Made by a program: the position numbers and the translations under genes. Positions 22,218 through 54,804 of a DNA stretch of 64,000 bases are shown one piece after another. The number at the start of each line of letters is the position of its first letter. Positions within the stretch are counted from its first letter, which is position 1. The stretch is from Acrocarpospora macrocephala. Its GTDB lineage: Bacteria > Actinomycetota > Actinomycetes > Streptosporangiales > Streptosporangiaceae. The notes below the pieces were generated by a model. The model saw nothing but the letters and a program-made list of their open reading frames with translations. It searched no databases and was not told the DNA's origin. The stretch lies in NCBI RefSeq assembly GCF_009687865.1, contig NZ_BLAE01000011.1:208774-272773 (forward strand), given 5' to 3'.

Positions 22218-22991
22218 CTATCGGGGTGAGTCGCCCGGGTACGCGGGCGGGAGGAGGATGCCGTTGTTGGCGCTGAGGCCGCCGTCGACGGGGATGGTGA
22301 CGCCGGTCACGTACGAGGCCGCGGGGGAGGTCAGGAACCAGACGACCTCGGCCTGCTCGCGCGGCTGCGCCCAGCGCCGCTGCGGGATGCGCTCGGTCAC
22401 GGCAGGGCCGAGCGTGGGATGGGCGAGCACTCCGGCGGTGAGCGCGGTCACCGTCCCGCCGGGGGCGATGGCGTTGATCCGGATGTTCTCCACCGCGTAG
22501 TCGATCGCCAGCCCGCGCACCAGATTGACCAGGGCCGCCTTGGACGCGTTGTACGCCCAGGTGACCGGATCGCCGCCGAGCCCGGAGATCGAGGAGGTGA
22601 CCACGACGGAGCCGCCCCCGGACGCGCGGAGCGCGGGCAGCGCGGCCCGCACGCCCAGGACCGCGCCGCGCACGTTGACGGCGAGGATCCGGTCGAACCG
22701 CTCGATCGCGCCCGGCGACTCCAGCGGGCCTGCGCCGCTGACGCCCGCGTTCAGGACGACCGCGTCCAGCCGCCCGAACCGGTCGAGCGCGAGGTCGACC
22801 AGGGCGGCGTTGGTCTCCTCGGTGGACACGTCCCCGGCCAGCGTGGCGATACCGTCGCCGGCCAGTTCGTCCAGGCCCGCCTTGTCGACGTCGACGGCCA
22901 CCACCCGCGCGCCCCGCTCGGCGAACAGCTCCACGGTGGCTCTGCCGATCCCGGCGGCGGCGCCGGTGACGGCCACGACCTGTACGCTCAT
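22218..22991 (-). CDS. Short-chain dehydrogenase/reductase of the PKS operon
   Basis: The ATG overlaps the stop of the last PKS gene (ATGA). The 257-residue protein is a classical SDR: cofactor motif [10 protein letters not shown] near residue 9, VDVD after the second strand (an Asp there favours NAD(H)), NAG in [11 protein letters not shown], catalytic Ser in TSSISGLGG and the YNASK active-site motif. The C-terminus [14 protein letters not shown] is typical. It would oxidise or reduce an alcohol/ketone on the polyketide after release. The C5 ketone or the C9 hydroxyl predicted from the modules are possible sites (inference). Confidence 0.9.
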
Positions 22992-25900: not shown

Positions 25901-28900
25901 ATGCACCTCGGTACCAGGCTCAGGTACTCCCTGTGCCTGGGCGTCCGGCTCAGGTACCCTCCGCGTTTCGGCATCAGGCCCAGGTACTCCCCGCATTCGG
26001 GCATCAGGCCCAGGTACTCCCCGCGTTCCGGCATCAGGCCCAGGTACTCCCCGCGTTCCGGCATCAGGCCCAGGTACTCCCCGCGTTCCGGCATCAGGCC
26101 CAGGTATTTCCTGTGCCCCGGCATCAGGCTGCGGGCCTCCTTGCGGAAGGATCTCCAGCTGGGCGGGGCGGACGCCTTCCGGCGGTCTCGCCTCCGGGTG
26201 GGTGCCGGTCAGGAATCCGGCGGCGTTCCGGGTCCAGGCGGTGGTTCCTTCCTGGCGGGAGTGGATGGTGACCGGGCGGCGGCCGGAGTCGTCCGGGGTT
26301 CCGGTCGCGACCTGGACGTCTACCGAGCCCTGGTCGGGGAGCACCAATGGGGTCTCGATCACGAGTTCGTCGAGGGTGTCGAGGCCTGTCTCGTCGCCTG
26401 CTCGGACGGCGAGTTCCAGCAGGGCGGTGCCGGGCACGATGACGGTGCCCATGACGGCGTGGTCGGCCAGCCATGGGTGGGTGCGCAGTGAGATCCTGCC
26501 CGATAGCAGGACGCCGTCGGCGTCGGCGAGCACGGCGGCGGCGCCCAGCAGCGGGTGGCCTGCGGCGGTCAGACCGAGGGCTGCTGGGTCGGCCAGGTGT
26601 TGCGCGGGGGGTTCCAGCCAGTAGCGGCTGTGCTGGAAGGCGTAGGTCGGGAGGTCGACTTTTCGTGCTTGGGGGAAGACGGCGTTCCAGTCGATCGTGC
26701 GGCCGTGGATGTGCGCGTGGCCGAGCGCGAGCAGGGCGGTGACGTCTTCAGGCCGATCCTTGCGCAGCACCGGGGCCAGGACCCGGCCCTCGGGAAGCGA
26801 CTCGCGAGCCATCCCGGACAGGACCCCATCCGGTCCCAATTCCAGAAATGTCGTGACTCCGGCGGCGTCCAGGGCAGTTATGGCGTCGGCGAAGCGGACG
26901 GGCTCGCGTACCTGCCGTACCCAATAATCCGGGTGAGTGACGGTTGTGATCCGGCCGGTCAGTGTCGACACCAGCGGGATCGAAGGCTCGCTGAAGGTCA
27001 CCGATTCCAGGATTTGCCGGAATTCGCCGAGCATGGGTTCCATCCGGGCCGAATGGAACGCATGGCTGACCGCCAACCGCCGAGTCCGCCGCTTCCACGA
27101 AGCAACCACGGCCTCGACCGCGTCCTCATCACCCGTGATCACCAGCGAGCCAGGCCCGTTGATCGCCGCGATCTCGACGCCCGCGGGAACTTCGTCCTCG
27201 CTTGCCTCGATCGCGGCCATCGCCCCACCGGACGGCAGCGCCTGCATCAACCGGCCCCGCGCGGCCACCACCTTCGCCGCATCGGTCAGCGACCACACCC
27301 CGGCCACATGCGCCGCCGCCAACTCCCCAATCGAATGACCCACCAGAAAATCCGGAAATATCCCCCACGACTCCAACAGCCGGAACAGCCCGACCTGCAA
27401 CGCGAACAAGCCCGACTGCGTATAGACGGTCTGATCCAGCAGCCCAGCCGAACCGAACACCACGTCCCGAACCGAAAGCCCGCCCAGCTCACCGACTGCG
27501 CCGCCCGGCACGTCAGCGGACGCCACGCCTGGCGCACCCCCGACCAGAACCCCGGCCAGATGGGCGTCCAACTCCTTGACCGCCGCGTCGAAAGCCTCGG
27601 CGAACACCGGGAAACGCTCGTAAAGCTCCCGGCCCATCCCCTCCCGCTGACTTCCCTGACCGGTGAACAGATACGCCAACGCCCGACCAGGACGACCGCT
27701 GACCACCTGACCCGAGGGCTCACCCGCCGCCAACGACCGCAACCCCGCCAGCAACTCCCCACGGTCACCGGCAACCACCACCGCACGCTCATCCAGAACC
27801 GCACGACCACGCGCCAGCGAATAACCCACATCCGCCGGATCAAGATCAGCTACCACGAACTCGGCCAACCGCGCCGCCTGCCCACGCAAACCCGCGAGAC
27901 CACGCCCCGAGACCACCCAAGGCACCAGACCGCCCGCCGACCACCGCGAAGCCAACTCCGGCAATGCCGCATCGACACCGGGACGGCCGATGCCTTTCAA
28001 CACGGACCCGGGCTCGGACCCTGCCACAGACGCGGCCTTGGGCCCCGCCACAGACGCGGCCTTGGGCCCCGCCACGGACCCCGCCGACAACCCTGACCCG
28101 GACGCGACCTCGGGCGACGACAACGGCGACAGCGGCTCCGACGGCGGCTCTTCGATGATTACGTGGGCGTTGGTGCCGCTCACGCCGAACGCGGACACCC
28201 CGGCCCGGCGGGTTGCGCCGGAACGCCATTCGCGCGCCTCCGTCAGCAGCTGCACCGATCCGGCCGACCAGTCGACATACGGCGACGGCTCATCCACATG
28301 CAACGTCCGCGGCAGCAACCCATGCCGGATCGCCTGCACCACCTTGATCACACCACCGACCCCCGCCGCCGCCTGCGCGTGACCGATGTTCGACTTCAGT
28401 GAACCGAGCCACAACGGATGGCCAGGATCACGGCCCTGGCCGTACGTCGCGATGATGGCCTGGGCTTCGATCGGGTCGCCGAGGCTGGTTCCGGTGCCGT
28501 GTGCCTCCACCAGGTCCACGTCCGAAGCCGACAGCCGGGCGGCGGCCAGTGCCTGCTGGATCACCCGCTGCTGGGACGGGCCGTTCGGCGCGGTCAGCCC
28601 GTTGGAGGTGCCGTCCTGGTTCACCGCCGTCCCACGTACGACCGCCAGCACCTCGTGGCCCAGCCGGAGAGCGTCCGAAAGCCGCTCCACCAGCAGGAAC
28701 CCGACCCCTTCCGCCCAGCCGGTGCCGTCCGCCGCACGCGCGAACGCCTTGCAGCGGCCGTCGGCCGACAGCCCCCGCTGGCGGGAGAACTCCACGAACC
28801 CCTGCGGGGTCGCCATCACCGACACGCCCCCGGCCAGCGCGAGATCCGACTCCCCCGACCGCAGCGACTGCACCGCCAGATGCAACGCGACCAGCGACGA

Positions 28901-29518
28901 CGAGCAGGCCGTGTCCACCGTCACCGCCGGACCCTCGAACCCGAACGAGTACGCGATCCGCCCCGACGCCACGCTGCGCAGGGTCCCGATGCCCAGCTGT
29001 CCCTCCAGCTCCACCGGCAGGCCCGGCCCGACACCGTAGTCACCCCCGGCGAGCCCGGCGAACACGGCGGTACGGCTCCCGCGCAGCGCCCCCGGATCGA
29101 TCCCCGCCCGCTCGAACGCCTCCCACGCGGTCTCCAGCAGCAACCGGTGCTGCGGGTCGGTGGCCAGTGCCTCCCGGGGCGAGATCCCGAAGAACTCCGC
29201 GTCGAACCCCGCCGCATCCGCCAGGAAGCCCCCGTGCCGGGTGTAGGAGGTGCCGGGATTGTCGGGGTCAGGGTCGTACAGGGCGTCGAGATCCCAGCCC
29301 CGGTCGGCGGGGAACGCGGTCACCGCGTCGCGCCCGGTCGCGACCAGATCCCACAGGTCCTCGGGCGAGGCCACGCCGCCGGGGAACCGGCAGGACATGC
29401 CCACGATCGCGACCGGCTCCCGGCGCGCGGACTCCACCTCGTGGAGCCGGGCCCGCAGGCTCTGCACATCGGCGATGGCGCGCTTCAGATAGTCGCGAAG
29501 CTTGTCGTCGTCGGCCAT
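22988..29518 (-). CDS. Type I PKS, module 5 with thioesterase: KS-AT(malonyl)-DH-KR-ACP-TE
   Basis: This 2176-residue protein starts (GGAGC ribosome site) with a coiled-coil docking helix (1-32). Approximate domains: KS 33-460 (Cys near 204 in TVDTACSSS), AT 615-920 (GHSIGE near 730, HAFHS near 820: malonyl), DH 985-1350 ([10 protein letters not shown] and [12 protein letters not shown]), KR 1520-1700 ([12 protein letters not shown] motif near 1620: B-type, YAAAN), ACP near 1840 ([11 protein letters not shown]) and TE 1940-2160 (Ser in GRSMGG near 2021, His in GDHFTVL). It adds the last unit, reduces and dehydrates it, then releases the chain by hydrolysis or lactonisation. A 10-residue repeat ([10 protein letters not shown] type) fills a loop between the two halves of DH. 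The AT and its flanks are nearly identical at DNA level to those of module 2. Confidence 0.93.
25921..26130 (-). repeat. 30-bp minisatellite inside the module 5 DH
   Basis: Seven 30-base units run head to tail; the three from 26011 to 26100 are identical and the outer ones degenerate. On the minus strand they encode a Pro/Gly/Asp-rich decapeptide, read as [10 protein letters not shown]. The array keeps the reading frame. Confidence 0.95.
26990..27910 (-). repeat. Homogenised AT tract (module 5 copy)
   Basis: About 0.9 kb covering the AT domain and its N-terminal linker is nearly identical to 41060-42010 in module 2, including synonymous positions; shorter parts also match module 3 (about 36405-36900). 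This suggests recent gene conversion or duplication. Confidence 0.75.
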
Positions 29519-29530
29519 GGAAAGCGCTCC

Positions 29531-32500
29531 TCAAAGCGAATCGTGGTCGAGAAGCTGGAAGAGCTCCTCGTCGGTGGCGGAGTCGAGGTCGACTGCGGTG
29601 CCCGGAGCGGCGGCGGTTCCCCACTGATCAAGCAGCCGCCGCATCCTGGCCAGCAGCTCTGGCTCGGCCCCGGCGGCGAGCACGGTCTCCAGGTAGTCGA
29701 GGGAGGCGTTCGCGGACGGGAACCTGACGGCCGCGCCGGACAGCTCGTCCCTGAGGTAGCCCGCGATCGCGGCCGGGGTCGGATAGTCGAAGACCAGCGT
29801 GGGCGGCAGCTGGAGGCCGGTGGCCGCGTTCAGCCGGTTGCGCAGGTCGACGGCGGTGAGCGAGTCGAGGCCCAGGTCGCGGAAGGGCCTGCCGAGTTCG
29901 ACGGCGCTCCCCCCGTCGTGGCCGAGGACGACGGCGGACTCGGCGCGTACCAGGTCCAGGACCGCCTCGTCGAGTTCGGGCCCGCTCAGCGCGGTGATGG
30001 ACCGGGGCGCCGGTTCCGGCGCGACCTCGGCGGCCCTGGTTCCGGGGGGCGCGGCATCCAGCCAGAACCGGCGCCGGTGGAAGGCGTAGGTCGGCAGTGG
30101 CACCCGGCGGCCTCCCGGGAACAGCGGCAGCCAGTCCACAGGGACACCTCGGACGTGCAGTTCGGCCAGCGAGGTGAGGAAACGGCCGAGGCCGCCCTGG
30201 TCGCGGCGGAGCGATCCGGCCACCACCGCGGGCGTGCCCGCGAGGGTCTCCTGGATCCCGGCGGTCAGCACGGGATGCGGGCTGACCTCGACGAACACGC
30301 CGTATCCCTGCTCGGCCAGGCCGCGCACGGCCGCGTCGAAACGCACCCGCTCGCGCAGGTTGGCATACCAGTAGCCGGCGTCCATCGGGGTATCGCCGAG
30401 CCAGTCCGCGGTAACCGTCGAGTAGAGCGGCACCCGGCCCGGACGCGGCCGGACCGGCGCGAGCGCCTCGCGCAACTCGGCCTCGATCCGCTCCACGTGC
30501 GCGGAATGCGAGGCGTAGTCCACGGGGATGAGCCGCGCCCTGACCTCCTCGTTCTTGTACGTCTCGACCAGCCCCGCCACCGCGTCCGCGTCCCCGGATA
30601 TCACCACCTGCGCCGGACTGTTGACGGCCGCGATCGAGACGAGATCCCCCAGCCGGGGTTCCACGTCCTCCGGCGGCAGCGCGATCGACGCCATCGCCCC
30701 ACTCCCGGCCAGCGCCAGAATGGCCCGGCTGCGCAACGCCACCACCCGCGCCGCGTCATCGAGGCTGAGAATGCCCGCAACGCAAGCCGCCGCGATCTCC
30801 CCCTGGCTGTGCCCCGCCACCGCATCCGGCCGCACCCCGTAGGACTCCCAGAGCGCGGCCAGCGACACCATCACCGCCCACAGCAGCGGCTGCACCACAT
30901 CCACCCGCTCCGGCTCCGGCGCCCCAGGCGCGCCCCGCAACACCTCTTCAGGCGTCCAGTCCAGGTACGCCGAGAGTGCCCTCCCGCACTCCCCCAGCCG
31001 CCCGGCGAACACCGGGGCCTCGTCAAGCAACTCGACCGCCATCCCCGCCCACTGCGACCCCTGACCAGGGAAGACAAACACCACCTTGCCCTCGGCGTCG
31101 GCCACCCCCCGGACCACCCGCGACGACGACACACCCCCCGCCAGCGCCCGCAACCCGGCCCCGAACCCATCCGCACCACCGAGCACGACCGCCCGATGCT
31201 CCATTCCGGCCCGCGTCGTCACCAACGAGAACCCGACATCCACCGCGTCAACCGACTCGGCCAACTCCGCCAGCCGCGCAGCCTGCCCACCAAGCGCCTC
31301 AGCCGTCCTAGCCGAAATCGGCCAGGCCAAGACCCCGGCGACACCCGTCTCCGGCCCGCGAGCGACAGACGCCGACGTCGGATCAGGTTCCAAGGCAGCC
31401 GTCATTCCCTGGGACGTGGCCGAGACAGAAGCCGAGTCGGCAACCGTGACCGGGACCGAACCCGGGACCGAAGCCGGATTCGTGGCCGGAGCCGAACCCG
31501 TGACCGAAGCCGGATTCGTGACCGAAGCCGGATTCGTGACCGGAGCCGGATTCGTGACCGGAGCCGGATTCGTGACCGGAGCCGGATTCGTGACCGGAGC
31601 CGGATTCGTGACCGGAGCCGGATTCGTGACCGGAGCCGGATTCGTGGCCGGAGCCGGATTCGAAATAAAGGCAGAGGTCGGTGCCGGAACGGGGGCGGAG
31701 GTCGAGGCCAGGCCAGGGGCCGATTCCTGGGGCGGTGCCGGGGTGTGTTTCGGGGAGAAGGTGAGGTCTGGTGGGGCCTGCTCGATGATGACGTGGGCGT
31801 TGGTGCCGCTGACGCCGAAAGCTGAGATGCCCGCGCGGCGTGGGCCGCTGGAGTGCCACTCCCGGGGTTTGGTGAGCAGTTCGACCGCGCCGGCCGACCA
31901 GTCGACGTGCGGGGTGGGCTCGTCCACGTGCAGCGTCCTGGGGAGCACTCCGTGCCGGATGGCCTGGACCATCTTGATGACCCCGGCCGCTCCGGCCGCC
32001 GCCTGGGTGTGCCCGATGTTCGATTTGAGCGAGCCGAGCCAGAGCGGATCCCCGGGACGGTCCTGGCCGTACACCGCGATCAGCGCCTGCGCCTCGATCG
32101 GGTCGCCGAGCGTGGTGCCGGTGCCGTGGCCTTCCACGGCGTCCACCTGGCCGGGGGCGAGCCCGGCGTTGTTGAGCGCTTGGCGGATCACCCGCTGCTG
32201 CGATGGCCCGTTCGGCGCGGTGAGACCGTTGGAGGCGCCGTCCTGGTTGACCGCCGTGCCGCGCACCACGGCCAGCACCTGGTGGCCCAGCCGCCGGGCG
32301 TCGGCCAGCCGCTCGACCAGCAGCAGGGTCACCCCTTCCGCCCACCCGGTCCCGTCGGCGGCGCCCGCGTACGCCTTGCACCGCCCGTCGGCGGCCAGCC
32401 CGCGCTGGCGGGAGAACTCCACGAACACCGAAGGGGAGGCCATGACCGCGACCCCGCCCGCCAGCGCCAGATCCGACTCCCCCGACCGCAGCGACTGCAC

Positions 32501-35500
32501 CGCCAGATGCAACGCGACCAGCGACGACGAGCAGGCCGTGTCCACCGTCACCGCCGGACCCTCGAACCCGAACGAGTACGCGATCCGCCCCGACGCCACG
32601 CTCCCCGCGTTGCCGTTGGCCAGATAGCCCTCCAGCGGCACGGGCGCCTCCCCCAGCCTGGGCGCGTAATCGTGGTACATCACTCCGGCGAAGACCCCGG
32701 TCCGGCTCCCGCGAAGGCTGTCCGGGTCGATCCCGGCGTGCTCGAACGCCTCCCAGGCGGTCTCCAGCAACAGCCGCTGCTGCGGGTCGGTGGCCAGCGC
32801 CTCCCGGGGCGAGATCCCGAAGAAGGCGGCGTCGAACTCGGCCGCGTCATGCAGGAACCCCCCAGACCGGGTGTACGAGGTGCCCGGATTGGCCGGGTCC
32901 GGATGGTAGAGAGCCTCCAGATCCCACCCTCGATCGACCGGAAAGTCCGTAATCGCGTCCCCACCCGATTCGACCAGCCGCCACAGGTCATCGGGACTGG
33001 CGATCCCCCCGGGAAGCCGACACGCCATCCCAACGATGGCGATCACATCCTCAGAAGCATCCACCCGCCCGCCGCCGCCACGGCCCTCCATCCGACCGCC
33101 GATACGCCCGCCAGCTTCCCCACCGCTCCGCCGACCAGCTTCTCCGCCGCTCCCCCAGCCAGCTTCTCCACCGGTCGGCCCGTCGGCTCCGCCGCCGGTT
33201 TGATTGCCAGCGTCCCTGCCAACTTCGCCGCCAAATTCCCCGCCAGCCCGTCCAGCACTCTGTCCAGCGCTTTCTCCTCCGTCCCGTCCAGCGGTCTGCC
33301 CGCCGGTTTGTACGACTTCGAGTTGGGCGCGCAGGTGATCCACGACCGCGGCCGGGGTCGGATGGTCGAAAGTCAAGGTGGCGGGGAGTCTCAGACCGGT
33401 GGCCGTGTTGAGGCGGTTGCGCAGTTCGACCGCCATCAGCGAATCGAGTCCCAGGTCGTTGAACGCGCGCTGGGCGGGCACCGACTTGGTGCCGAGGACC
33501 GCCCCGGCCTCGGCCCGGACCAGGGCCAGCAGGGCCTCCGCACGGGCGGTCTCGTCGAGCGCAGCCAGCCGCCGTACCAGCGGGAGTTCAGGCGCGGCGG
33601 CCCGGCGGGGGGCGCGGACGAGCCCGCGGAGCAGGGGCGCCTCGCCACCGGATCGCGGGTCGAGCGCGGCCGCGACCACGACGGGGTGCCCGAGCGAGAG
33701 CGCGGCGTCGAACAGCTCCAGGCCAGTCGCCGTCGGAAGCGCCCGCACGCCGCCCCGGGCCGCCCGGGCCCGGTCGGCCTCGCTGAGATGCGCGGTGACG
33801 CCGGTGCTCTCCGCCCAGAGCCCCCAAGCCAGCGACACGGCGGGCAGGCCAAGCGTGCGCCGATGCTCCGCCAGGGCGTCCAGGTAGGCGTTGGCCGCCG
33901 CGTAGCTCGCCTGCCCGGCGCTGCCGAGGATTCCGGCGACCGAGGAGTAGAGCACGAACCAGGCCAGGTCGAGATCCTTGGTCAGCTCGTGCAGGTGCCA
34001 GGCGGCGTCCGCCTTGGGACGCAGCACGGCCGCGACTCGGTCGGGGGTGAGCGAGGTCAGCACCCCGTCGTCGACGATTCCGGCGGTGTGCGCGACGGCG
34101 GTCAGCGGATGCTCGGGCGGAATGGCGGCGAGCACAGTTTCAAGGAAGCCGCGGTCGGCCGCGTCTCCCGCGAGAATATCGACGCGAGCGCCCAGCGCGG
34201 CCAACTCATCTCTCAGATCACTCGCGCCGGGGGCGTGCGCGCCACGACGACTGGTCAGCACCAGATGCCGTACGCCGTGCCGCACCACCAGATGCCTGGC
34301 AAGCAGGCGACCGAGCCCACCCGTGCCACCAGTGATCAACACCGTCCCATCCGGGTCGAACGGCTTGGCGCTGATGGCCAACTCCCCACCCGGATCAAGC
34401 AGCTTGCCGTGCCTCGCCAGCTCCTCACCGGGATCGACCCGCTCGGCGCGGCTTCCCGATTCCCCTCCCGGACCGGCCGGCTTGCCGTGGCTCCCCACTC
34501 CCCCATCCCCGTCGAGGGGCTTGACCCGACTCGCCGTGTCCGCCGCCCGCACCAATCGGGGCACCAGGATCCGCTCCCCGCGTACGGCGAGTTGAGGCTC
34601 GTCGGCGGGGATCGCGGGCACGTCACCGTCGATCAGGACGATTCGTCCTGGATGCTCCGTTTGGGCCGAACGGACCAGCCCCCAGACCGCCGCCGCTCGC
34701 GGATCGACGGCATCACCGGGGAGAGCGGAGACGGCGTTCCTGGTCCGCACGACCACCACGGATTCCGACGAATCACCGAGACGGCGGCTCAGCTCGGCCA
34801 GCACCCGGTTGACCAGGTCGTGTACGTCCCCGCTAAGCGGCTCGTCGATCACATCGACGGGGTCAGTGGCGGAGGTGGTGGTGGAAACGTCGACCCAGTC
34901 CACCCGGTAGAGATCCTGCCGTGGAGCCGACCGGAGCGTGTCCGGGTCGATCGGCCTGGACCGGAGCACGTCAACTGAGACCACAGGCGCGCCAGTGACG
35001 TCGGCGACCTCCACGGCCCACGCGTCGGATCCCGCCGGGGTCAGCCTGACCCGTGCGGTGGTGGCCCCGGAGGAGTACGCGCGGACACCCTGCCAGGCGA
35101 AGGGCAGCAGGACCCGGCTCTGGTCGGCGGCGACATGAAGGGCAGCGTCGAACAGCGCGGGATGAACACCAAAACGAGCGGCATCGGAGTGCTCACCCTC
35201 CCGAAGAACCACCTCAGCGAAGATCGTCTCACCACGCCGCCATGCGCCCGTCACACCCTGGAACGCAGGACCGTAATCGAGCCCGGCAACGGCCAACCCG
35301 TCGTAGAGCCCCCGGACATCGACTGCTTCGGCATCCGCGGGCGGCCATTCAACCAGGCCGAAGCCCCCACGACCGGAGCCCTCGGCGCCAAAGTCCTCAC
35401 GCGCGCCCCCCTGACCACCGGAAACACCACTCGCATTCCCCGTGCCGCCGGAAGCCCTACGCGTAACCTCGTGACCACCGGAGCCCTCAGGTGCAATCTC

Positions 35501-38500: not shown

Positions 38501-38734
38501 GCGGTCCAGATCCCAGCCCCGGTCGTCCGGGAACTCGGAGACCGCGTCGACCTCGTCGGCCACCAGCCGCCAGAGGTCCTCGGGGGATCGCACCCCGCCC
38601 GGGAACCGGCAGGCCATCCCGATCACCGCGATCGGTTCGCTCTGGTCGTCCCGTACGCGCTGGAGCCGTTGCCGGGTTTCGTGCAACTCGGCGGAGACCC
38701 GCTTGAGCAGATGCCGGATCTGGTCGTCAGTCAT
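29531..38734 (-). CDS. Type I PKS, modules 3 and 4: KS-AT(mal)-DH-KR-ACP / KS-AT(mmal)-ACP
   Basis: This 3067-residue protein starts 15 bases after the previous stop, with a GAGG ribosome site. Approximate domains for module 3: docking helix 1-32, KS 33-460 (Cys near 203), AT 570-880 (GHSIGE, HAFHS: malonyl), DH 910-1260 ([22 protein letters not shown]), KR 1460-1640 (VDD, B-type), ACP near 1768. Module 4: KS 1895-2320 (Cys near 2065), AT 2550-2850 (GHSQGE near 2645, YASHS near 2740: methylmalonyl), ACP near 2955 ([11 protein letters not shown]), C-terminal docking region. Module 4 has no reductive domain: the AT passes through about 60 residues straight into the ACP, so a beta-ketone with an alpha-methyl remains. 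Repeats swell the DH of module 3, the ACP-KS linker (about 1815-1890, Gly-rich) and the KS-AT linker of module 4. Confidence 0.93.
31482..31661 (-). repeat. 18-bp minisatellite in the module 4 KS-AT linker
   Basis: Ten tandem 18-base units (plus-strand unit GTGACCGGAGCCGGATTC), the six from 31536 to 31643 identical. On the minus strand they encode the hexapeptide NPAPVT, giving a long Pro-rich spacer between KS and AT. Confidence 0.95.
35401..35610 (-). repeat. Degenerate 30-bp repeat inside the module 3 DH
   Basis: About seven diverged 30-base units encode a decapeptide of the form [10 protein letters not shown]. It sits in the same DH loop as the 30-bp array of module 5 but has an unrelated sequence. 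Confidence 0.85.
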
Positions 38735-38749
38735 CGTTGCCTCACCGGT

Positions 38750-43687: not shown

Positions 43688-43701
43688 GGACGCGATGCCC
43701 T

Positions 43702-46700
43702 TCACGAAAGACGCAGTTCGGTGTCGATGAGCTCGAAGAGCTCCTCATTGGTGGCCAGGTCGATCTCGGCGTCCACCACCGTCCCGAGCTCGGCGCCGCT
43801 CTCCGGCTCCGCCGGGACGAGCCGTTCCCGCAGGTACGCGGCGAGCGCGAGCGGAGTCGGATGATCGAACACGAGGGTGGACGGCAACCTCAGACCGGTG
43901 ACCTGACCGAGCCGGTTACGCAACTCGACGCTGCTGAGCGAGTCGAACTCGCCTTCCAGGAAGCCCCGGTCGGGCGGGACTGCGTCGGTGTCCACATGTC
44001 CGAGCACCGCCGCCGCGGCGGTCCGTACGAGGTCGAGCAGGCGGCTCGACTGTTCGGCCTCGGAGCGGAGCGCGAGCTCCCCGGCCAATGACGCGGAACT
44101 GTTCGGGTGGCCGTCCGCGTGACCGTTTGGGTAACCGGCCGAATGGCCGCTCGCATAGCCAGGCGCATGACCGTTCGCGTGTCCGGGCGAATGGCCGTTC
44201 GCGAGGGCCCGGTTCCGGCGAAGGTGGGCGAATAGCGGGGAACCGCTCGCCTCGTGGTCCAGGTGGGCGGTCACCGCCACCGGATCCGGCCCGGCCAGCG
44301 CGGCGTCGAGCAGGGCGAGTGCCTGCGCGGTACCCATCGGCGGGAGCCCGGCGCGGGCCAGCCGGGCGCGGTCCGCCGGGGTGAGGTGGCGGGTCATGCC
44401 GCTCGGCTCGGCCCACTGTCCCCAGGCCAGCGCGGTGGCGGGCAGGCCGTTCGCCCGCCGGTGCCGTGCCAGCGCGTCGAGGAAGGAGTTGGCGGCGGCG
44501 TACCCGGCCTGGCCCGCGGTGCCGAGGAGACCGGCCGCCGACGAGAACAGCACGAAGGCCGACAGGTCCCGGTCCCGGGTGAGCTCGTGCAGGTGCCAGG
44601 CGGCGTCGGCCTTGGGCCGCAGGACGCCCGTGATCCGCTCCGGGGTGAGCGACCCGAGCACGCCGTCGTCGAGGACGCCCGCCGCGTGCACCACGGCGGT
44701 CAGCGGATGCGCGGCCGGCACGGCGTCGATCAGCGCGGACAGCGAGATCGGGTCGGCGACGTCCACGGCGGCGATCCGCACGTCGGCGCCGAGTTCGGCC
44801 AGTTCGGCCCGGAGCTCGGGGGCGCCCGGCGCGCTCAGACCGGCTCGGCTGGCGAGAAGCAGGTGCCGTACCCCGTGCTTGGTGACCAGATGGCGTACGG
44901 TGAGCGCGCCGAGGGCACCGGTCCCGCCGGTCACCAGGACGGTCCCGTCCGGGTCCAGCCGTCCGGCCGGCAGGGTGAGGACCAGCTTGCCGGTGTGCCG
45001 CGCCTGGCTGAGGCGGCGGAGCGCCCGCCGGGCGTGGCGTACGTCCCAGGCGGTGACCGGCAGGGGAGCCAGCGCGCCGCTGCCGAACAGGCCGGTCAGC
45101 TCGCCGAGCATTACGGCGATCCGGTCGGGGTCCACCTCGAACAAGTCGAACGCCTGGTAGCTGACGCCCGGATGGGCGGCCGCGACCGCGCCGGGGTCGC
45201 GCGGGTCGGTCTTGCCCAGCTCGACGAACCTGCCGCCGTCGCCGAGCAGGCGCAGCGAGGCGTCGGTGAACTCGTGGGCGAGGGTGTTGAGGACGATGTC
45301 GACGGGCGGGAAGGCGGTCGCGAAGTCGAGTGTGCGGGTGGAGGCGATGTGGGCGTCGTCCAGCCCCTGTTCCCGCAGGGTCGGCCATTTGGCGGGCGAG
45401 GCGGTGCCGTAAACCTCGGCTCCCCAGTGGCGGGCGAGCTGGACGGCGGCCATGCCGACGCCACCCGTGGCGGCGTGCACCAGCACACGCTCTCCCGGCT
45501 GAAGTGCCGCCAGTCCGGCGAGCCCGTGGTAGGCGGTCAGGAAGGCGACCGGCGCGGCGGCGGCCTGCGCGAACGTCCATCCAGCGGGGATCGGCACCAG
45601 GTAACGCCGATCGGTGATCGCGACCGGCCCGATAGTCCCCGGTACAAGTCCCATGACGCGGTCGCCCGGGACGAGGTCCGCCACGCCGGGTCCGGCCTCG
45701 ATCACAACGCCCGCGGCCTCGGCGCCGATCCTGGCCTCGCCGGGGTAGAGGCCGAGCGCGATGAGCACGTCGCGGAAGTTCAGCCCCGCCGCCCGGATCG
45801 CGACCCTGACCTCGCCGGGGGCGAGCGGGCGCGACAGATCCGCGGCCGGGAGCGCGGCGATCCCGTCGGCGACGCCCCGCGTGGAGACGTCCAGCCGCCA
45901 CTCCTCGCCGGGCAACGCCAGGACGTCCTCCGGCGTGGGACGGGCCAGCCGAGGAACCAGGATCTCGCCCTGGCGCACCGCCGACTGGCTCTCCCCGCTC
46001 GCCACCGCACTCGCCAGCACGGCCAGCGACTCCGGCAGGCCATCGTGGTCGATCAGCGTGAGTCGTCCAGGAAACTCCGTTTGCGCGGTCCGGCCCAGGC
46101 CCCAGAGCCCGGCATCCCCGAGCCCCGCCACGTCCTCCCCGTCACGCGTGCCGATCGCGCCGCGAGTGACCAGAACCACCCGGGCCGCCGCAAGCCGGGC
46201 ATCTTCCAGCGCGCTCTGGAGCAGCCCGAGCCCAGCCGCCGTCCCCTCGTGCAGCGCCCCCGGCAACGCCTCCCCACCGGACGCCACCGCGACCACCAGC
46301 ACCTCCGGCCGGCCCGCCACCGCCGACCCCAGATCATCGAAACGCGGCACACCGGGCACGCCAACCCCCACCGCCGCCCACCGCGCCGTATCCACCGCCG
46401 ACGGCGTCGGCACCCCCACCCAATCCAGCCGGTACGGCACCGCCACCGCAAACCCACCCCTTGGGGCAGACCGGAACGTCAGCGACTCAACCACGATCAC
46501 CGCCGCCCCCGAGCCATCCACCGCCACCAACCGAACCGTGTCCACCCCAATCGGCGTCACCCGCACCCGCAACGCCGTCGCTCCAGCCCCAGCCGTCACC
46601 ACCCCCTGCCACGCAAACGGAATCCGAACACCCCGCCCGTGCCCACCCTGACTACCGCGACCGCCGTGAGCGTCCGGGCCGCTCTGACTGTCCGACCCGT

Positions 46701-49700
46701 CCGGGCCCACGTGACCGCCGTGACCGTTCTGAGCGTCCGGGCCGCTCTGACCGTCCAAGCCGTGCGGGCCCACGTGACCGCCGTGCCTGCTCTGACCGCC
46801 GTGACCGTTCTGAGCATCCGGGCCGTCCGAGCCGTCTGGGCTGGTTCGATCGTGGTTCGCCTGATCGCCGTCCGGGAGCACGATCCCCACTGCGGCGTGC
46901 AGGGCGGCGTCGAGCAATGCCGGGTGGATGCCGTATCCGCTTGCGGTGGGTAGTTGATCCGCCGGAAGGCTCACCTCGGCGAGGACCTCTTCGCCCAACC
47001 GCCAGGCGGCGGTCAGCCCTTGGAAGGCGGGGCCGTAGGTGTAGCCCTGGTCGTGGAGTCGCTCGTACCAGCCGGTCAGGTCGACGGGCCGGGCATTCGG
47101 CGGCGGCCATGCCCCGGCTAAGGCCAGGACGGAAGCCGCGGGCTCCGCCTCGGCGGGAGCGCGCACGTCTGCCGCCACGGAAGTCACGGGTCCGGCCTCG
47201 GCGGGGGCGTACACGTCTGCCGCCGTGGGAATCATGGGCCCCGCCTCGAGAGAGGCCCGCGCATCTGTCGCCGTGGGAGTCACGAGTCCGGCCTCGACGG
47301 GGGCGAGTATGCCCGTTGCGTGCCTGGTCCATGGTTCGGTGGTCGCGGTGCGGGAGTGGACGGTGAGCAGGCGGCGGCCGGAACCGTCGGCGGCGGTGGT
47401 GCGGACTTGGAGTTGGACGTCGCCGTGTGGGGGCAGGGCCAGTGGTGCCTCCAGGGTCAGTTCCGCTAGTTGGAGCCCGCCGGAGCGCTTGGCGGCGTGG
47501 GTGGCCAGTTCTACGAAGGCCGTGCCTGGCAGGAGCGCGGTGCCGCCGATGGCGTGGTCGGCCAGCCAGGGCTGGGCGCTGGTGGAGAGGCGAGCAGTCA
47601 GCAGGATGCCTTGGCCGTCCGCCAGGTCGATGGCGGCGCCGAGAAGGGGATGATCTGCCGCGTCGAGTCCAGCGGCGGCGGGACTGGCGACGGGGACAGG
47701 CGGGGCGAGCCAGAAGCGTCGGCGCTGGAAGGCGTAGGTGGGCAGGTCTACCAGGCGGGCCCCGCGCCCAGCCAGGCCACCATGCCGATCCCCGTGCCGA
47801 TCAGTGGGCCGATCAGCGGGCCGATCACCATGCCAATCACTGTGCCGATCGGCATGCCAGTCGGCGTGCCAGTCGACGTAGACGCCGTTGACGTGGAGGG
47901 TGGCCAGGGCCGTACGGAATGCGAGCGGTTCGGGGTGGCCGGGACGGGACGCGGTGACGAGCGTGTGCGGGGGCGTGTCCGCGAGGCAGTCGTGGGCGAG
48001 CGAGGTGAGCGTGCCGCCTGGGCCGAGTTCGAGGTAGTCGGTCACGCCGAGCTCCCGGAGGGCGGCGATGCCGTCGCTGAACCGGACCGGCCGCCGGATG
48101 TGGTCCGCCCAGTAACCCGGGTCACGTAACTGCTCGGCGGTGGCCGGTCGGCCGGTGACGTTGGAGATCAGTGGAATACGTGGCGGCGCGAAGGCCACCC
48201 CTTCCGCGACCGCGCGGAACACGGCTGGCACCTCGTCCATGTGCGGCGAGTGGAAAGCGTGGCTGACCTGGAGCAGCTTGGCCTGGCGACCCCGCGAACG
48301 CCAGCGCTCCGCTATCTCGCCGACCACGTCCCGGTCCCCGGAGATCACCACCGAGTCGGGTCCGTTGATCGCCGCCAGATCCACCGCGCCGGGATGCTCC
48401 GCCAGCAGTTTGGCGATCTCCGCCTCGCCGCCCCGCAACGCGGCCATCGCACCGACAGCGGGCACGGCCTGCATGAGCCGCCCCCGCGCGGCGACCAGCG
48501 CGGCGGCGTCCGGCAGTGAGAACACGCCCGCCACGTGCGCGGCGGCCAGTTCACCGACCGAATGGCCGATCAACTGGTCGGGCTGCGGGAGGAAGGACTC
48601 CGCCAGCCGGTAGAGGGCGACCCCGAAGGCGAACAGCGCGGGCTGGGTGTACGCGGTGGTGTCCAGCCTGGCCGCGTTCTCCGTGCCCGGCTCGGCGAAC
48701 ATGACCTCCCGGATGGGATGGTCAAGATGCGTGTCCAGGTGCCGGGTCACCTCGGCGAGCGCGTCGGCGAAGACGGGAAACTCCTCGGCCAGCCGCCGCC
48801 CCATCCCGGCGCGCTGGCTGCCCTGACCGGGAAACAGGAAGGCGAGCCCGCCCGTCCTAGCGGCGACACCCCGCACGAGCCCGGCGCCAGCCTCACCTCC
48901 GGCGAGCGCCTGCAAGGCGGCCAGCACCTCGGCACGGCCGCCACCCAGCACCACAGCCCGGCGCTCGAAGGTGGCCCGCCCGGTGACCAGCGTGTACGCC
49001 ACATCTGGCAGAGCAAGCCCATCGTCCTCAGCCAGCCGCCCCCGAAGCCGGGCCGCCTGCTCGCGAAGCGCATCCTCAGACCTGGCCGAGAGAACCAACG
49101 GCAGAGCAAGCCCATCGTCCTCAGCCAGCCCCGCCCGAAGCCGAGGCACCTGCTCGCGAAGCGCATCCTCAGACCTGGCCGAGGAAATCAACGGCAGAGC
49201 AAGCCCATCGTCCTCAGCCACCCCCGCCCGAAACCGGGACACCTGCTCGCGAAGCGCATCCTCAGACCTGGCCGAGGAATCCAAGGGCATGGCATCCGGC
49301 CCCGACGCACGCCGCGTCTCCTCAGTGCCAGACTCCACCCCGAGCTCACGATCGGACACCGAAGGAAGCGTGGGATCCGGCTCCGCAGAGGGCTCACGAC
49401 CGGACACCGAACGGAACGCGAGATCCGACTCCGCAGAAAGTTCACGATCGGACACCGAACGGAACGCGGCATCCGACTCCGCAGAAAGTTCACGATCCAA
49501 CCCCGAACGGAACGCGGCATCTGACTCCGCAGAGAGCTCACGATCGAGCCCCGAATGGGACGCGAGGGCCGACTCTGTGGGGAGTTCGGAGTTGGAATCA
49601 GTTGGGGTGTGTTCCGGGAGTTCGGTGGGGGCCTGTTCCAGGATGAGGTGGGCGTTGGTGCCGCTGATGCCGAAGGAGGATATGGCCGCTCGGCGGGGGC

Positions 49701-52700
49701 GTCCGGTGGTCGGCCAAGGGGTGGGTTCGGTGAGGAGGGCGAGTGTGCCTGAGGTCCAGTCGATGTGGGGGGATGGGTGGTCGACGTGCAAAGTGGCGGG
49801 GAGGGTTCCGTGCCTGATGGCCTGGACCATGGCGACGAGGCTGGTGACGCCGGCGGCGGCTTGGGTGTGGCCTAGGTGGGATTTGCAGGAGCCGAGGAGG
49901 AGGGGAGTTGCGGGGTCGCGGTCCTGGCCGTAGGTGGCCAGGAGGGCTCCGGCCTCGATCGGGTCGCCGAGGGTGGTGCCGGTGCCGTGCGCCTCTACCG
50001 CGTCGATCTCGGTGGGTGACAGGTCGGCGGCGGCCAGGGCGGCGCGGATGACGCGCTCCTGGGCTGGACCGCTGGGGGCGGTGAGGCCGTTGCTCGCGCC
50101 GTCCTGGTTGATCGCGCTGCCTCGGACGACGGCGAGGACGGGATGTCCGTGGCGGCGGGCCTGTGACAGCGGTTCCAGCAGGACGAGGCCGACAGCCTCT
50201 GACCAGGCGGTGCCGTTCGCGGCGGCGGCGAACGGTTTGCACCTGCCGTCGGGGGCGAGGCCGCCCTGGCGGCTGAACTCGGTGAACATGCCGGGGGTCG
50301 ACATCACGGCGGCGCCGCCCGCGACGGCCCGCTCGCATTCGCCCCGGCGGAGCGCCTGAACGGCCAGGTGGATGGCGACCAGCGAGGACGAACAGGCGGT
50401 GTCGACGGTGAGCGCGGGACCTTCCAGCCCCAGCGTGTACGCGATCCTGCCAGAAGCCACACTGGGCAGGGTCCCGGTGAGGGCGTGGCCCTGGTAACCG
50501 TCCGGGGTCTCGTGCAGACGTGGGCCATACTCCTGCGGTGTGACCCCGACGAATACGCCGGTACGACTGCCGCGTTGACCGGCCGGATCCAGGCCGGCCC
50601 GCTCATAGAGTTCCCACGCCGATTCCAGCAGCAGCCGCTGCTGCGGGTCCATGGTGGCGGCTTCACGCGGGCTCAACCCGAAGAAGGCCGCGTCAAAAAG
50701 GTCGGCGTCGCGCAGAAAACCGCCAGAGCCGGTGACGGAGGTCCCGACGGCCGAAGTCCCGGAGAGAGAGGTCCCGATGGCCGAGGTCCCGGAGAGAGAG
50801 GTCCCGGAGAGAGAGGTCCCGGAGAGAGAGGTCCCGGAGAGAGAGGTCCCGGAGAGAGAGGTCCCGCTGACAGAGGCCCCGGTGGCACCGGCGCTGGTGT
50901 CAGTCGCGCTGGTGTCAGTCGCGCCGGTGAAGGGCGCGGGAAGCAGTCGGTTCAGGTCCCAGCCGCGATTGTCAGGGAAGTCGCCGATCACGTCGCGGGT
51001 GGAGCCGAGCACACGCCACAGGTCCTCGGGCGAGGTGGCGTCGCCGGGCCACCGGCCGCTCATGGCGACGATCGCGATCGGCTCGTCGGCACCTGCCGCG
51101 GGAACGTCGACTGGTGGTGGCGGCGCGTCGGGCGAGATCGTGGCGGTCAGGTATCCGGTGACCGCCCGGGGAGTCGGATGGTCGTAGATCAGCGAGGCGG
51201 GCAGGTTCAGCCCGGTGGCTGTGCCGAGCCGGTCCCGGAACTCGACCGCCGCCGCCGAGTCGAACCCCAGATCCTTGAAGGTCGCCTCGTCGTCGACAGC
51301 GTCGCCGGAGGGGTACCCGAGCACCAGCGCCGCGCTCTGCGCCACTGCCACCCGAACAGCCCGCTCCCGCTCGATCCGGTCGAGCGCGCCGAGCCCGCCG
51401 GAGCCGCCGATCCCATTGGGCTCCCTTGAGCCGCCGACGCCCGGCCCGCTGGACTTCCCTGAGCCGCCCAGCCCGCCGAACACACCGGACTCACCTGATT
51501 CGCTAGCCTCGGCGAATACACGTAGCCCGTCGAATCCGCTGGCTTCGGTGGATACACCCAGCCCGTCAGATCCGCTCGCCTCGGCGAATACACCCAGCCC
51601 GTCAGATCCGCTCGCCTCGGCGAATACACCCAGCCCGTCAGATCCGCTCGCCTCGGCGAATACACCCAGCCCGTCAGATCCGCTCGCCTCGGCGGATACA
51701 CCTGGTCCATCGGGTCCGCCAAGCGTGTCGGATCCCCGGGCGGGTGCGGATTCCTGTCCGGCGGCCAGGGTCGAGGCGGATTCACGCCGGGCGGCCAGGG
51801 TGGGGGCGGGATCGTGTCTGAGCCAGAGGGGGCGGCGTTGGAAGGGGTAGGTGGGTAGGTCCACCAGCTGGGCTTGGTCGCCGATCACGTCCGGCCAGGC
51901 CACTGTGCCGCCTCCGGTGTGCACCCGGGCGAGGGAGAGCAGGAACTGGCGTAGGTCGCCGTGGTCGCGGCGGAGGGTGCCGGTGGCGAGCACGTCGCCG
52001 GCGGTCTCCCGGATGCCCTCGGTGAGGATCGGGTGGGGGCTGCTCTCCACGAACACGCCGTGCCCGTCAGCGACGGCGGTGCGGACGGCCAGGGCGAGTT
52101 CCACGGTCTGGCGGAGGTTGCGGTACCAGTACGCGGCGGTGAGTTCCGTGGTGTCGAGACGGCCGCCGGTGACGGTGGAGTAGAACGCCACCTCCGCCGG
52201 GCGGGGCCGGATGTCGCCCAGCTCGTCGAGGAGGCGTCGCCGCAGTGGTTCGACCTGGGGCGAGTGGGACGCGTAGTCGACGGGGACGGTGCGCACCCGT
52301 ACGCCCTCCGCACGGTAGGCGGTGAGGAGTTCGGCCAGGGCCTCGGCATCGCCGGAGACCACGGTGGCGCGGGGACCGTTGACCGCGGCCACGCCGAGCT
52401 GGTCGCCCCACCGGGACACCCGCGCGCGCACCCGGTCGGCGGGCAGGGCCACCGAGGCCATTCCACCCCGGCCCGCGACGGCGGCGATGGCCCTGCTTCG
52501 GAGCGCCACCACCCTGGCGGCGTCGTCCAAGGACAGCGCCCCGGCGATGTGCGCGGCGGCGATCTCACCTTGCGAGTGGCCGATGACCGCGTCGGGGCGT
52601 ACACCGGCGGCTTCCCACAACCGGGCAAGCGACACCATGACCGCGAAGAGCGCAGGCTGCACGACGTCGACGCGGTCCAGCGAAGGCGCGCCGGGGCGCC

Positions 52701-54804
52701 CGGCCAGCAGTTCGGTCAGCGACCAGCCGGTGTGCCTGTCCAACGCCCGGGCGCAGGCCTCGATCTCCTGAGCGAACACCGGCGACTCGCGAATCAGTCC
52801 GGCGGCCATCCCCGCCCACTGGGACCCCTGCCCGGGAAACACGAACACGGTGCTGCCCCGCTGCCGGGCCACCCCCTGGACCAGAGCGACCGCCTGCTCC
52901 CCCCGAGCGAGCGCCAGCAGGCCGTCCCGAACCTCAGCACGGTCACCCACCAGCACGGCCCGATGCTTGAAAACGGTCCGCGTCACGGCCAGCGAGAGCG
53001 CCACATCCGGATCCCCCGCCGCCCCCGGCCGATCGAGAAAGCCATAAAGCCGGGCACCCTGCTCACGCAAAGCCCCCTCACTCGCAGCGGATACAACCCA
53101 CGGCAAAACCGCCCCGGCCGCCTGCGCACCCAGCGCCGCGACAACCGGTTCCGCACGCACCGCGCCAGCCGCCTCCGCACGCAGCACCGCCACGACCGCC
53201 TGTGCCCCGTCCGCACGCAAGACCTCGCCAGCAGCTTCCCCACGAGGTGCCGCCACGACCGCTTGCGCCCCGGCACGCAACATCTCACCGGCTGCCTCCG
53301 CGCGCAGCGCCGCCACCACCGACTCCGCGCGCACCGCGCCAACCGCCTCCGCACGCGGCGTGCCGGGCGCGTCCGCGCGAAGTGCCACGGCGATCGCCCG
53401 CGCGCCGGCTGCGTCCGCACGCAGCACCTCGTCTGCCGCTTCCGCGCGGAGTGCCGCGACAACCGCCTCTGCGCGCGGCGGCGCTGCAGGGGACGGCGCT
53501 TCAGTTACCGCCGGGGCGGAGTGTGGGGGTTCGGTGAGGATGATGTGGCAGTTTGTGCCGCCCATGCCGAAGGAGCTGACGCCTGCGGCGCGGAGGTGGT
53601 CGGGTTGGGGCCAGGGGGTTGTGGTGGTTTGTACGCGTAGGCGTAGGTCGGTGAGCGGGATGTCGGGGTTGGGGGTTTGGAAGTTGAGGCTGGGTGGGAG
53701 TTCGCCGTGGGTGATGCTGAGGGCCGTTTTGAGCAGGCCGACGATGCCGGAGGCGCCTTCCAGGTGGCCGACGTTGGTTTTGGCCGAGCCGACGAGGAGG
53801 GGCGTGTCGGCGGGTCGGGTGGCGCTGAGGGCTAGGCCGAGGGCGGCGGCTTCGATGGGGTCGCCTAGGCGGGTGCCGGTGCCGTGGAGTTCGACGTACT
53901 GGATGTCGGCGGGAGTGAGGCCGGAGCGGGCGGTGGCGCGCTGGATGACCTCGGCCTGGGCGCCGGGGTCCGGGACGGTGAGGCCGTCGGTGTGGCCGTC
54001 GTTGTTGACGGCGGTGCCGCGGATGACGCAGTGCACGCGGTCGCCGTCGGCGAGCGCCTGGGTGAGGGTCTTGAGCACGACGGCGCCGCCGCCCTCGCCG
54101 CGGACGTAGCCGTTGGCGCGGGCGTCGAAGGTGTGGCAGCGGCCGTCCGGGGAGAGCGCGCCGAAGCGGTCGGCCGCGACGGTCGTGTCGGGGGCGATGT
54201 TGAGGTTGACCCCGGCCGCGATCGCGACCGTGGACTCGCCGGAGCGCAGGCTCTCCGCGGCCAGGTGGACGGCCACCAGCGAGGACGACTGGGCCGAGTC
54301 GACGGTCAGGCTCGGCCCGCGCAGGCTCAGCGCGTGCGAGACGCGGTTGGCGATGAGGCCGCGGTTGAGGCCGGTCAGGGTGTGGCGGGTGACGGCGGCG
54401 GGGCCGCCGCGGTGGACCAGCGCCGCGTAGTCGGACGCGATGGCGCCGACGAAGACCCCGGCCGGGGTGGCGGCGAGGCGCCCGGGCGGGATCCTGGCGT
54501 CTTCGAGCGCCTCCCAGGCGAGTTCCAGCACCAGGCGCTGCTGCGGGTCCATCTCGGCCGCCTCGCGCGGGGAGATCCCGAAGAATTCGGGGTCGAAGCG
54601 GTCGACGTCGGCGAGGAACCCGCCGAACCGGGGGGCGTCCTCGGCGCCTTCCCAGCGCCCGGCGGGCGGTTCCGTGATCGCGGAGCGGCCACCGCGCAGC
54701 AGCTCCCAGAAGGCCGCCGGGTCGGGCGCCTGCGGGAGCCGGCAGGCCATTCCGATGACGGCGACGGCCTCGACCGATCCGGATTCCGCACGGCCGACAT
54801 TCAT
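43702..54804 (-). CDS. Type I PKS, loading module and module 1: KSQ-AT(mmal)-ACP / KS-AT(mal)-DH-ER-KR-ACP
   Basis: This 3700-residue protein is the first gene of the PKS operon (GGAG before the ATG). Approximate loading domains: KSQ 12-422 with Gln172 in place of the catalytic Cys (VDSAQSSS), AT 650-945 (GHSQGE, YASHS near 845: methylmalonyl), ACP near 1181 ([11 protein letters not shown]). KSQ decarboxylates the loaded unit, giving a propionyl starter. Module 1: KS 1243-1720 (Cys near 1471), AT 1985-2290 (GHSVGE, HAFHS: malonyl), DH 2375-2790 ([22 protein letters not shown]), ER 2960-3280 ([17 protein letters not shown]), KR 3285-3465 (LDD, B-type), ACP near 3622, docking tail. All reductive domains look intact, so this unit becomes saturated. 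At least seven repeat arrays enlarge the linkers, the DH and a KS loop; an Asn-Gly-His-rich linker (44095-44205) separates KR and ACP. Confidence 0.93.
46640..46860 (-). repeat. Degenerate Gly/His/Asp-rich repeat inside the module 1 DH
   Basis: The minus strand encodes an insert of about 75 residues with recurring blocks such as [17 protein letters not shown]. It lies directly after the second catalytic DH motif ([12 protein letters not shown]), a second insertion point in this domain. Confidence 0.85.
47146..47304 (-). repeat. 48-bp repeat in the inter-hotdog loop of the module 1 DH
   Basis: Three or more diverged 48-base units, with matching CACGTCTGCCGCC-type cores at 47165, 47213 and 47261, encode 16 residues each of the form [16 protein letters not shown]. 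The position matches the repeats in the DH domains of modules 3 and 5. Confidence 0.85.
47782..47877 (-). repeat. 12-bp repeat at the AT-DH junction of module 1
   Basis: Eight 12-base units (consensus about GTGCCGATCAGC on the plus strand) encode a chain of Asp, His, Arg and Trp residues ([12 protein letters not shown] type) after the AT. Confidence 0.85.
49005..49283 (-). repeat. Triplicated 93-bp unit in the module 1 KS-AT linker
   Basis: Three copies spaced exactly 93 bases (anchor GAGCAAGCCC at 49011, 49104 and 49197) encode 31 residues each with the core [11 protein letters not shown]. This core is the normal first helix of the AT-associated linker, so a structural helix itself has been copied. 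Confidence 0.9.
49347..49586 (-). repeat. 48-bp minisatellite in the module 1 KS-AT linker
   Basis: Five units spaced 48 bases (CACGA anchors at 49347, 49395, 49443, 49491 and 49539) encode 16 residues each, read as [16 protein letters not shown]. It lies next to the 93-bp triplication. Confidence 0.9.
50731..50880 (-). repeat. 15-bp minisatellite inside the module 1 ketosynthase
   Basis: Ten tandem 15-base units; six are identical (GGAGAGAGAGGTCCC at 50761, 50791, 50806, 50821, 50836 and 50851). They encode the pentapeptide SGTSL on the minus strand. The array replaces the short loop that other KS domains here have between RGWDL and GGFL. Confidence 0.95.
51506..51721 (-). repeat. 36-bp minisatellite between loading AT and ACP
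   Basis: Six 36-base units, the three from 51578 to 51685 identical, encode the 12-residue unit [12 protein letters not shown]. It forms a flexible spacer between the loading AT and its ACP. Confidence 0.95.
53090..53500 (-). repeat. Degenerate Ala-rich repeat in the KSQ-AT linker
   Basis: The minus strand encodes about 135 residues of recurring [19 protein letters not shown]-type blocks between KSQ and the loading AT. The unit length varies, so the array is older or more scrambled than the other repeats. Confidence 0.8.

Follow-up and report, generated by a model that had tools for sequence, protein, structure and literature searches.

The PKS genes and their setting

The window analysed here, a 64-kb stretch (G000:C11:208774-272773) of the 12.1-Mb draft genome of Acrocarpospora macrocephala (Streptosporangiaceae; 166 contigs), carries a regulator gene with a LuxR-type domain at 54898-56385 and, below it on the minus strand, four PKS genes, named A to D:

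PKS gene A, 43702..54804, minus strand, 3700 aa: KSQ-AT-ACP, KS-AT-DH-ER-KR-ACP; seven arrays scoring at least 100 (Pfam, SAQSSS motif)
PKS gene B, 38750..43705, minus strand, 1651 aa: KS-AT-KR-ACP; no array scoring at least 100, long KS-AT linker with 190 aa between motifs (Pfam, motif spacing)
PKS gene C, 29531..38734, minus strand, 3067 aa: KS-AT-DH-KR-ACP, KS-AT-ACP; three arrays scoring at least 100 (Pfam)
PKS gene D, 22988..29518, minus strand, 2176 aa: KS-AT-DH-KR-ACP-TE; two arrays scoring at least 100 (Pfam)

Each module has KS, AT and ACP domains on large multidomain proteins, which makes these genes members of the modular cis-AT type I PKSs. The sister species Acrocarpospora pleiomorpha NBRC 16267 (G001) has the same cluster on contig NZ_BLAF01000017.1, the best segment of which is 91% identical to gene B, and catalytic motifs are present in both species (KS TACSSS or KSQ SAQSSS, and HGTGT; AT GHSxG; ACP serine; TE GxSxG; KR GGTGxL; DH HxxxGxxxxP and HPAL[LF]D). 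The ER search pattern matched in neither species, and the ER of gene A is called by Pfam. In a further genome, G002, C40:32405-33286 matches window positions 55133-56004, part of the LuxR-type gene region, and there is also a match to the right flank of the window. The window PKS genes were not found in the 60 kb fetched from that contig, and no KS match was found on it; either loss from G002 or gain in the other lineage could have produced this difference.

Tandem arrays in three of the four genes

TRF reported 44 rows at a score of at least 50 in the window, which merged into 15 arrays at a score of at least 70 and 12 at a score of at least 100. The first-pass annotation had described repeats in three of the four PKS genes, and the twelve arrays are indeed confined to genes A, C and D. 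The main periods are 18, 24, 30 (twice 15), 36, 48, 63, 90 and 93 bp; 12-bp arrays exist too, with TRF scores of just 58-76. The twelve arrays, followed by three weaker ones, are:

25915..26129, minus strand: 30 bp x 7.2; gene D, between the two DH hot-dog folds; absent in A. pleiomorpha
28001..28079, minus strand: 24 bp x 3.3; gene D, KS-AT linker; in A. pleiomorpha a shorter stretch that is no array
31466..31662, minus strand: 18 bp x 10.9 (PVTNPA); gene C module 2, KS-AT linker; absent in A. pleiomorpha (66-aa indel)
33091..33197, minus strand: 24/48-bp array; gene C, linker joining the module 1 ACP to the module 2 KS; A. pleiomorpha shorter by 29 and 9 aa
35395..35602, minus strand: 30/90-bp array; gene C, between the two DH hot-dog folds; 60-bp unit in A. 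pleiomorpha
46632..46833, minus strand: 63 bp x 2.6; gene A, inside the second DH hot-dog fold, HPALLD to IPFAW; 54-bp unit in A. pleiomorpha
47129..47305, minus strand: 48 bp x 3.5; gene A, between the two DH hot-dog folds; equal length in A. pleiomorpha, no TRF row of at least 70
49007..49289, minus strand: 93 bp x 3.0; gene A module 2, copies the beginning of the structured KS-AT linker; x 2.0 in A. pleiomorpha
49343..49575, minus strand: 48 bp x 4.9; gene A module 2, KS-AT linker; missing from A. pleiomorpha (within a 140-aa indel)
50738..50882, minus strand: 15-bp array, (SGTSL)n; gene A module 2, KS loop before GGFL; 35 aa shorter in A. pleiomorpha
51497..51702, minus strand: 36 bp x 5.7; gene A loading module, AT-ACP linker; x 2.1 in A. 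pleiomorpha
53150..53328, minus strand: 63 bp x 2.9; gene A loading module, KS-AT linker; 47 and 29 aa shorter in A. pleiomorpha
44101..44203, minus strand (weaker): 24 bp x 4.3, score 80; gene A, KR-ACP linker
47778..47870, minus strand (weaker): 12/24 bp, score 81; gene A, AT-DH linker
51746..51809, minus strand (weaker): 30 bp x 2.1, score 86; gene A, AT-ACP linker

All four genes are open, and every one of the 47 array rows tallied in PKS genes has a period divisible by three (two of these rows are double counts, as two arrays of genome G004 were counted in two overlapping frames in the tally of periods and genes). The same is true of five further arrays in a PKS gene on contigs C32 and C49 (~18.1-23.5 kb) that the gene-finding motif had missed. 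These results bear out the claim that unit lengths are multiples of three and that frames are kept; units divisible by three within an open gene are also what characterizes coding minisatellites (VNTRs). A phase-variable contingency locus, which needs a unit not divisible by three for copy-number changes to switch the frame, is disfavoured on the same grounds. The statement that many arrays hold several perfect adjacent copies was a little strong, since at least two exact neighbouring copies occur in five of the 15 arrays (18 bp x 6.7, 15 bp x 5.6, 36 bp x 4.0, 30 bp x 3.6 and 24 bp x 2.2).

Density of arrays compared with chance, ordinary genes and other PKSs

Twenty codon shuffles of the four genes produced no array scoring at least 100 (top score 80), and the window PKS genes hold 3.8 arrays per 10 kb, compared with 0.25 per 10 kb (8 arrays) in 16 ordinary stretches of the same genome totalling 320 kb. 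Arrays are thus not equally frequent in ordinary genes of this genome, the outcome that would have spoken against the first-pass annotation, and its central observation of repeat-riddled PKS genes is confirmed. Three of the eight arrays in ordinary stretches have periods not divisible by three. Large arrays outside PKS genes, with periods of 112 and 17 bp (also not divisible by three), were seen at L061:17460-17897 (G000:C9) and L045:4274-4560 (G000:C11).

The density is also unusual for modular PKSs, as had been proposed. Among 77 PKS loci from other genomes (29 arrays in 1.57 Mb), 60 have no array and the highest density is that of the A. pleiomorpha orthologue of the window locus, without which the remaining 76 loci average 0.16 arrays per 10 kb. 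Against that rate the Poisson chance of 12 arrays in 31.8 kb is ~3e-13, a figure that is only rough because arrays cluster. Within the A. macrocephala genome itself, eight PKS frames on contig C20 (32 KS motifs) and two on contig C7 contain no array scoring at least 100, whereas the PKS region on contig C32 contains six. A genome-wide tendency was rejected, given the rarity of arrays in the ordinary stretches and their absence at this score from the eight C20 frames. We also rejected a rule that short proteins of one or two modules are the riddled ones: gene B, C32:7389-12776 and C32:12780-18179 have no array scoring at least 100, and a three-KS gene of G004, with six array rows, is a further counterexample. 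Nor does third-position GC separate the two classes (0.83-0.87 in the window genes, 0.82-0.92 in C20).

Position of the arrays within domains and linkers

The arrays had been described as lying in linkers, and by Pfam edges this holds for most of them: five are in KS-AT linkers, one in an AT-ACP linker and one in an ACP-KS linker between modules. It does not hold for one array that interrupts the KS of gene A module 2 and divides the KS match in two, or for four within DH domains, three of them between the hot-dog folds (one in each of the three DHs of the cluster) and the fourth within the second such fold of the DH in gene A. When aligned with 17 DHs of other genomes, nearly all of the DH arrays fall in columns that are gapped in the others, and the KS loop of gene A module 2 is ~65 residues long versus 7 in a solved erythromycin-synthase KS (11sz).

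Spacer lengths have changed, in agreement with the suggestion that such arrays feed spacer-length evolution. KS-AT motif spacing is 124-274 aa in the window versus 113-162 in the 15 C20 modules measured, and DH motif spacing is 210-265 aa versus 154-186 in the 20 C20 DHs measured. The gap from HPALLD to LPFxW is 101 in one of the three window DHs and 19 and 26 in the others (24-29 in C20).

AlphaFold models were made of two regions, KS to KS-AT (49 sequences) and DH (20 sequences), in which 721 of 1075 and 234 of 436 residues, respectively, reach a pLDDT of at least 90. For the six best chains among solved DHs, the TM-scores of the DH model, taken over the template, are 0.89-0.93. A pLDDT below 50 was assigned in the KS model to the KS loop (59-114) and the KS-AT arrays (496-613 and 621-645), and in the DH model to most of both gene A DH arrays (158-187 and 297-357); nearly every array residue in these two regions falls below this value, and the arrays are predicted to be disordered. 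Counting against a picture of purely disordered spacers is the 93-bp array, as the element it repeats is structured; only its last copy lies within the confidently modelled KS-AT linker fold.

Pentapeptide repeat proteins adopt a quadrilateral beta helix fold, and the (SGTSL)n KS loop at 50738-50882 passes the Pfam threshold for this family (PF00805; 28-29 bits, cut-off 20.2). A true pentapeptide-repeat fold is disfavoured, as the loop (model residues 59-114) has a pLDDT below 50 and no strands in the 49-sequence model, which is not final, and the match is probably a chance likeness of the five-residue unit.

Turnover between sister species

All four A. pleiomorpha orthologues are open and 92.5-93.2% identical to genes A-D at the amino acid level, and 39 in-frame indels separate the two species over the four genes. 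Three of the twelve arrays are absent in A. pleiomorpha (25915, 31466 and 49343). Eight of the other nine differ in length or unit: five have an A. pleiomorpha TRF row in which copy number or unit has changed (35395, 46632, 49007, 50738 and 51497), and three are shorter there with no TRF row (28001, 33091 and 53150). The exception, 47129-47305, is unchanged in length with no A. pleiomorpha TRF row, and counts against turnover. A. pleiomorpha in turn has arrays where A. macrocephala has none scoring at least 100, in the KS-AT linkers of gene B (12 bp x 9) and gene C (72 bp x 2) and before the KR of gene C (39 bp x 2.6); at a fourth site, the AT-ACP linker of gene A, the score is 102 there and 86 in A. 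macrocephala. Copy number thus differs between close relatives, at the level of species, as in VNTRs, and a recent and independent origin of several arrays, which the first-pass annotation had proposed, is supported. With other repeats at the same joints in the sister species, these joints appear to be quickly rewritten while the enzymes stay intact.

For a quantitative comparison we paired genes of the two species, taking in all four window genes, five of eight C20 genes, five of seven C32 genes and one of two C7 genes (the others had no complete partner or lay under a longer antisense frame); of the eight control rows one, C32:34965 (dN/dS 0.84, dS 0.03), was dropped as probably an antisense frame. 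The window genes have an indel mass of 66.9 aa per 1000 aligned residues, compared with 5.7 for the five C20 genes. Synonymous divergence is also higher in the window genes (dS 0.165-0.195 versus 0.081-0.159), so part of the indel contrast may reflect age or mutation rate. Higher dS alone, ~1.5-fold in the mean and 2.4-fold at the extreme, is too small to account for a roughly twelvefold difference in indel mass, and C20:40442 has a dS of 0.148 yet 10 indel residues. The rate of spacer turnover in some PKS genes is about ten times that in others of the same genome. A point against this picture is C20:13266, which has no array yet 15.6 indel aa per 1000, close to the 19.5 of array-free window gene B.

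Selection on domains and arrays

Inside Pfam domains (7222 codons) dN/dS is 0.15 and 91 indel residues occur; outside them (2796 codons) dN/dS is 0.377 and 581 of the 672 indel residues are found. The split follows Pfam edges, hand-set edges having given a dN/dS of 0.132 and 26 indel residues inside. The Pfam domains of the window genes are under purifying selection, and their sequences suggest that the enzymes are still working. Ten of the 39 indels (91 residues) begin inside Pfam domains, which counts against tolerance in linkers and surface loops as the full account. Between copies within arrays, pooled pN/pS is 0.73.

Spacer lengths could instead be tuned by selection, linker length altering carrier-domain reach or module packing such that some lengths are favoured. 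Arrays do recur at equivalent sites (between the hot-dog folds of all three DHs, and in five KS-AT linkers) and persist in genes under purifying selection, but recurrence follows equally from tolerance, lengths at the same site vary widely between species with no visible trend, and dN/dS outside the domains and array pN/pS amount to weaker constraint, with no non-synonymous excess. We regard adaptive tuning as quite unlikely. Much less probable still is a decaying cluster in which unneeded genes collect repeats: although dS is higher and the indel load larger than in C20, the four genes have no stop or frameshift in either species, most tested catalytic motifs are kept, the domains show the low dN/dS given above, and whole-gene dN/dS is 0.20-0.25 versus 0.20-0.38 in the five C20 genes.

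Repeat bursts in other PKS genes of the genus

The scan of other PKSs in the same genome and genus that the first-pass annotation had proposed showed relatives with species-specific arrays of their own. One C32 PKS gene is an open frame of 3388 aa in A. macrocephala, 3235 aa in A. pleiomorpha and 3729 aa in G002. Sorted by eye, with the upstream open frame of G002 left out, four of its eight variable sites are long mainly or exclusively in G002, one exclusively in A. macrocephala and one exclusively in A. pleiomorpha; the other two are an array common to the latter two species and a site that differs in all three. A 5875-aa PKS frame of G004 contains repeats such as (DRGA)n and (GARAGDWAPGT)n, and its A. 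macrocephala orthologue, which ends at a contig end, is 91.4% identical over 4763 residues and has no array scoring at least 100 (the A. pleiomorpha counterpart, only 69-72% identical, was not used as an orthologue). As other PKS genes have species-specific arrays and clean orthologues, repeat bursts are local to gene and lineage and extend beyond one cluster. In the riddled PKS gene at G004:C94:267639-285263, whose A. macrocephala orthologue is free of arrays, two modules have inserted stretches in common, a pattern expected of gene conversion.

In two species the C32 PKS loading gene seems to be split over two contigs (G000:C69:3-1199 and C32:2-7420; G001:C24 and C49), with arrays at the start of C32 (10-227) and of C49, and a single 2819-aa frame covers it at G002:C39:128305-136761; arrays probably break draft assemblies at this gene. 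That the window arrays are themselves an artefact of short-read contigs is hardly credible, since, although this is a draft of 166 contigs and arrays do trouble assembly at the C32 loading gene, the four genes stay open, copies within arrays differ, the arrays are shorter than 300 bp and the assembly of a second species has in-frame length variants at most of these sites. Exact copy numbers may nevertheless carry some assembly error.

Probable gene conversion between modules

In the KS-AT region of genes B and D, within-genome identity exceeds orthologue identity by more than 0.02 in 8 of 37 overlapping 50-codon windows, linker windows included. A. pleiomorpha has three such windows for the B/D pair and one for B/C. 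Windows of this kind are the mark of gene conversion between modules, a process mentioned for assembly lines in PMC9205934.

Discussion

Location, frame, differences between species, purifying selection on domains and conversion-like tracts were observed directly, and we consider it likely that they reflect recent in-frame tandem duplication, tolerated in linkers and loops of intact PKSs and accompanied by conversion, in bursts that are local. Short coding stretches in linkers and surface loops would have been duplicated in tandem recently, by replication slippage or unequal exchange; selection would remove frame-breaking changes and those that reach into the folded core; and the survivors would be mostly disordered spacers, probably near-neutral, whose length turns over between sister species. 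Altered linkers may then have been copied between neighbouring PKS genes by gene conversion. The first-pass annotation, which had proposed slippage tolerated in linkers, was mostly right and is partly supported: tandem duplication stands, but loops of catalytic domains bear arrays too, and duplication does not appear to be the sole process, as B/D gene conversion would move linkers as well. It is conceivable but unlikely that in this genus minisatellite bursts and module conversion together act as a length-generating engine, in which spacers both between and within catalytic domains are rewritten about tenfold faster than elsewhere among the genome's PKS genes and some lengths are selected for domain reach or module traffic.

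Linker length is a practical obstacle in modular PKS engineering. These clusters offer a natural catalogue of places where modules have absorbed tens of extra residues, namely the KS loop before GGFL, the linkers KS-AT, AT-ACP, KR-ACP and ACP-KS, and in the DH both the gap between hot-dog folds and the loop that precedes LPFxW. A testable question also follows from them: what makes coding minisatellites burst in certain genes while sparing close relatives within one genome. Among the literature matches listed, chiefly non-subscription papers, none concerns minisatellites in modular PKS linkers by its title or the start of its abstract.

What stands out is the degree and place of spacer turnover. 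The window genes share domain order, catalytic motifs and KS, AT, DH, KR, ACP and TE matches with modular cis-AT type I PKSs of the erythromycin-synthase type, whose chains are the best solved relatives of the KS; unlike the C20 PKS modules, their linkers and loops are swollen by tandem arrays. The conversion-like B/D tracts resemble concerted evolution in assembly-line genes (PMC9205934), but unlike known conversion in assembly lines they include linker windows with length changes. With intragenic in-frame minisatellites, or coding VNTRs, the arrays share units divisible by three, copy number that differs between relatives and relaxed constraint, a general pattern that PMC5120217 describes for protein repeats; the array pN/pS is in line with the relaxed selection reported there for new protein repeats in general. 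They differ from usual coding VNTRs in that many unrelated units occur in one cluster, in linkers and loops of multidomain enzymes, alongside clean PKS genes in the same genome.
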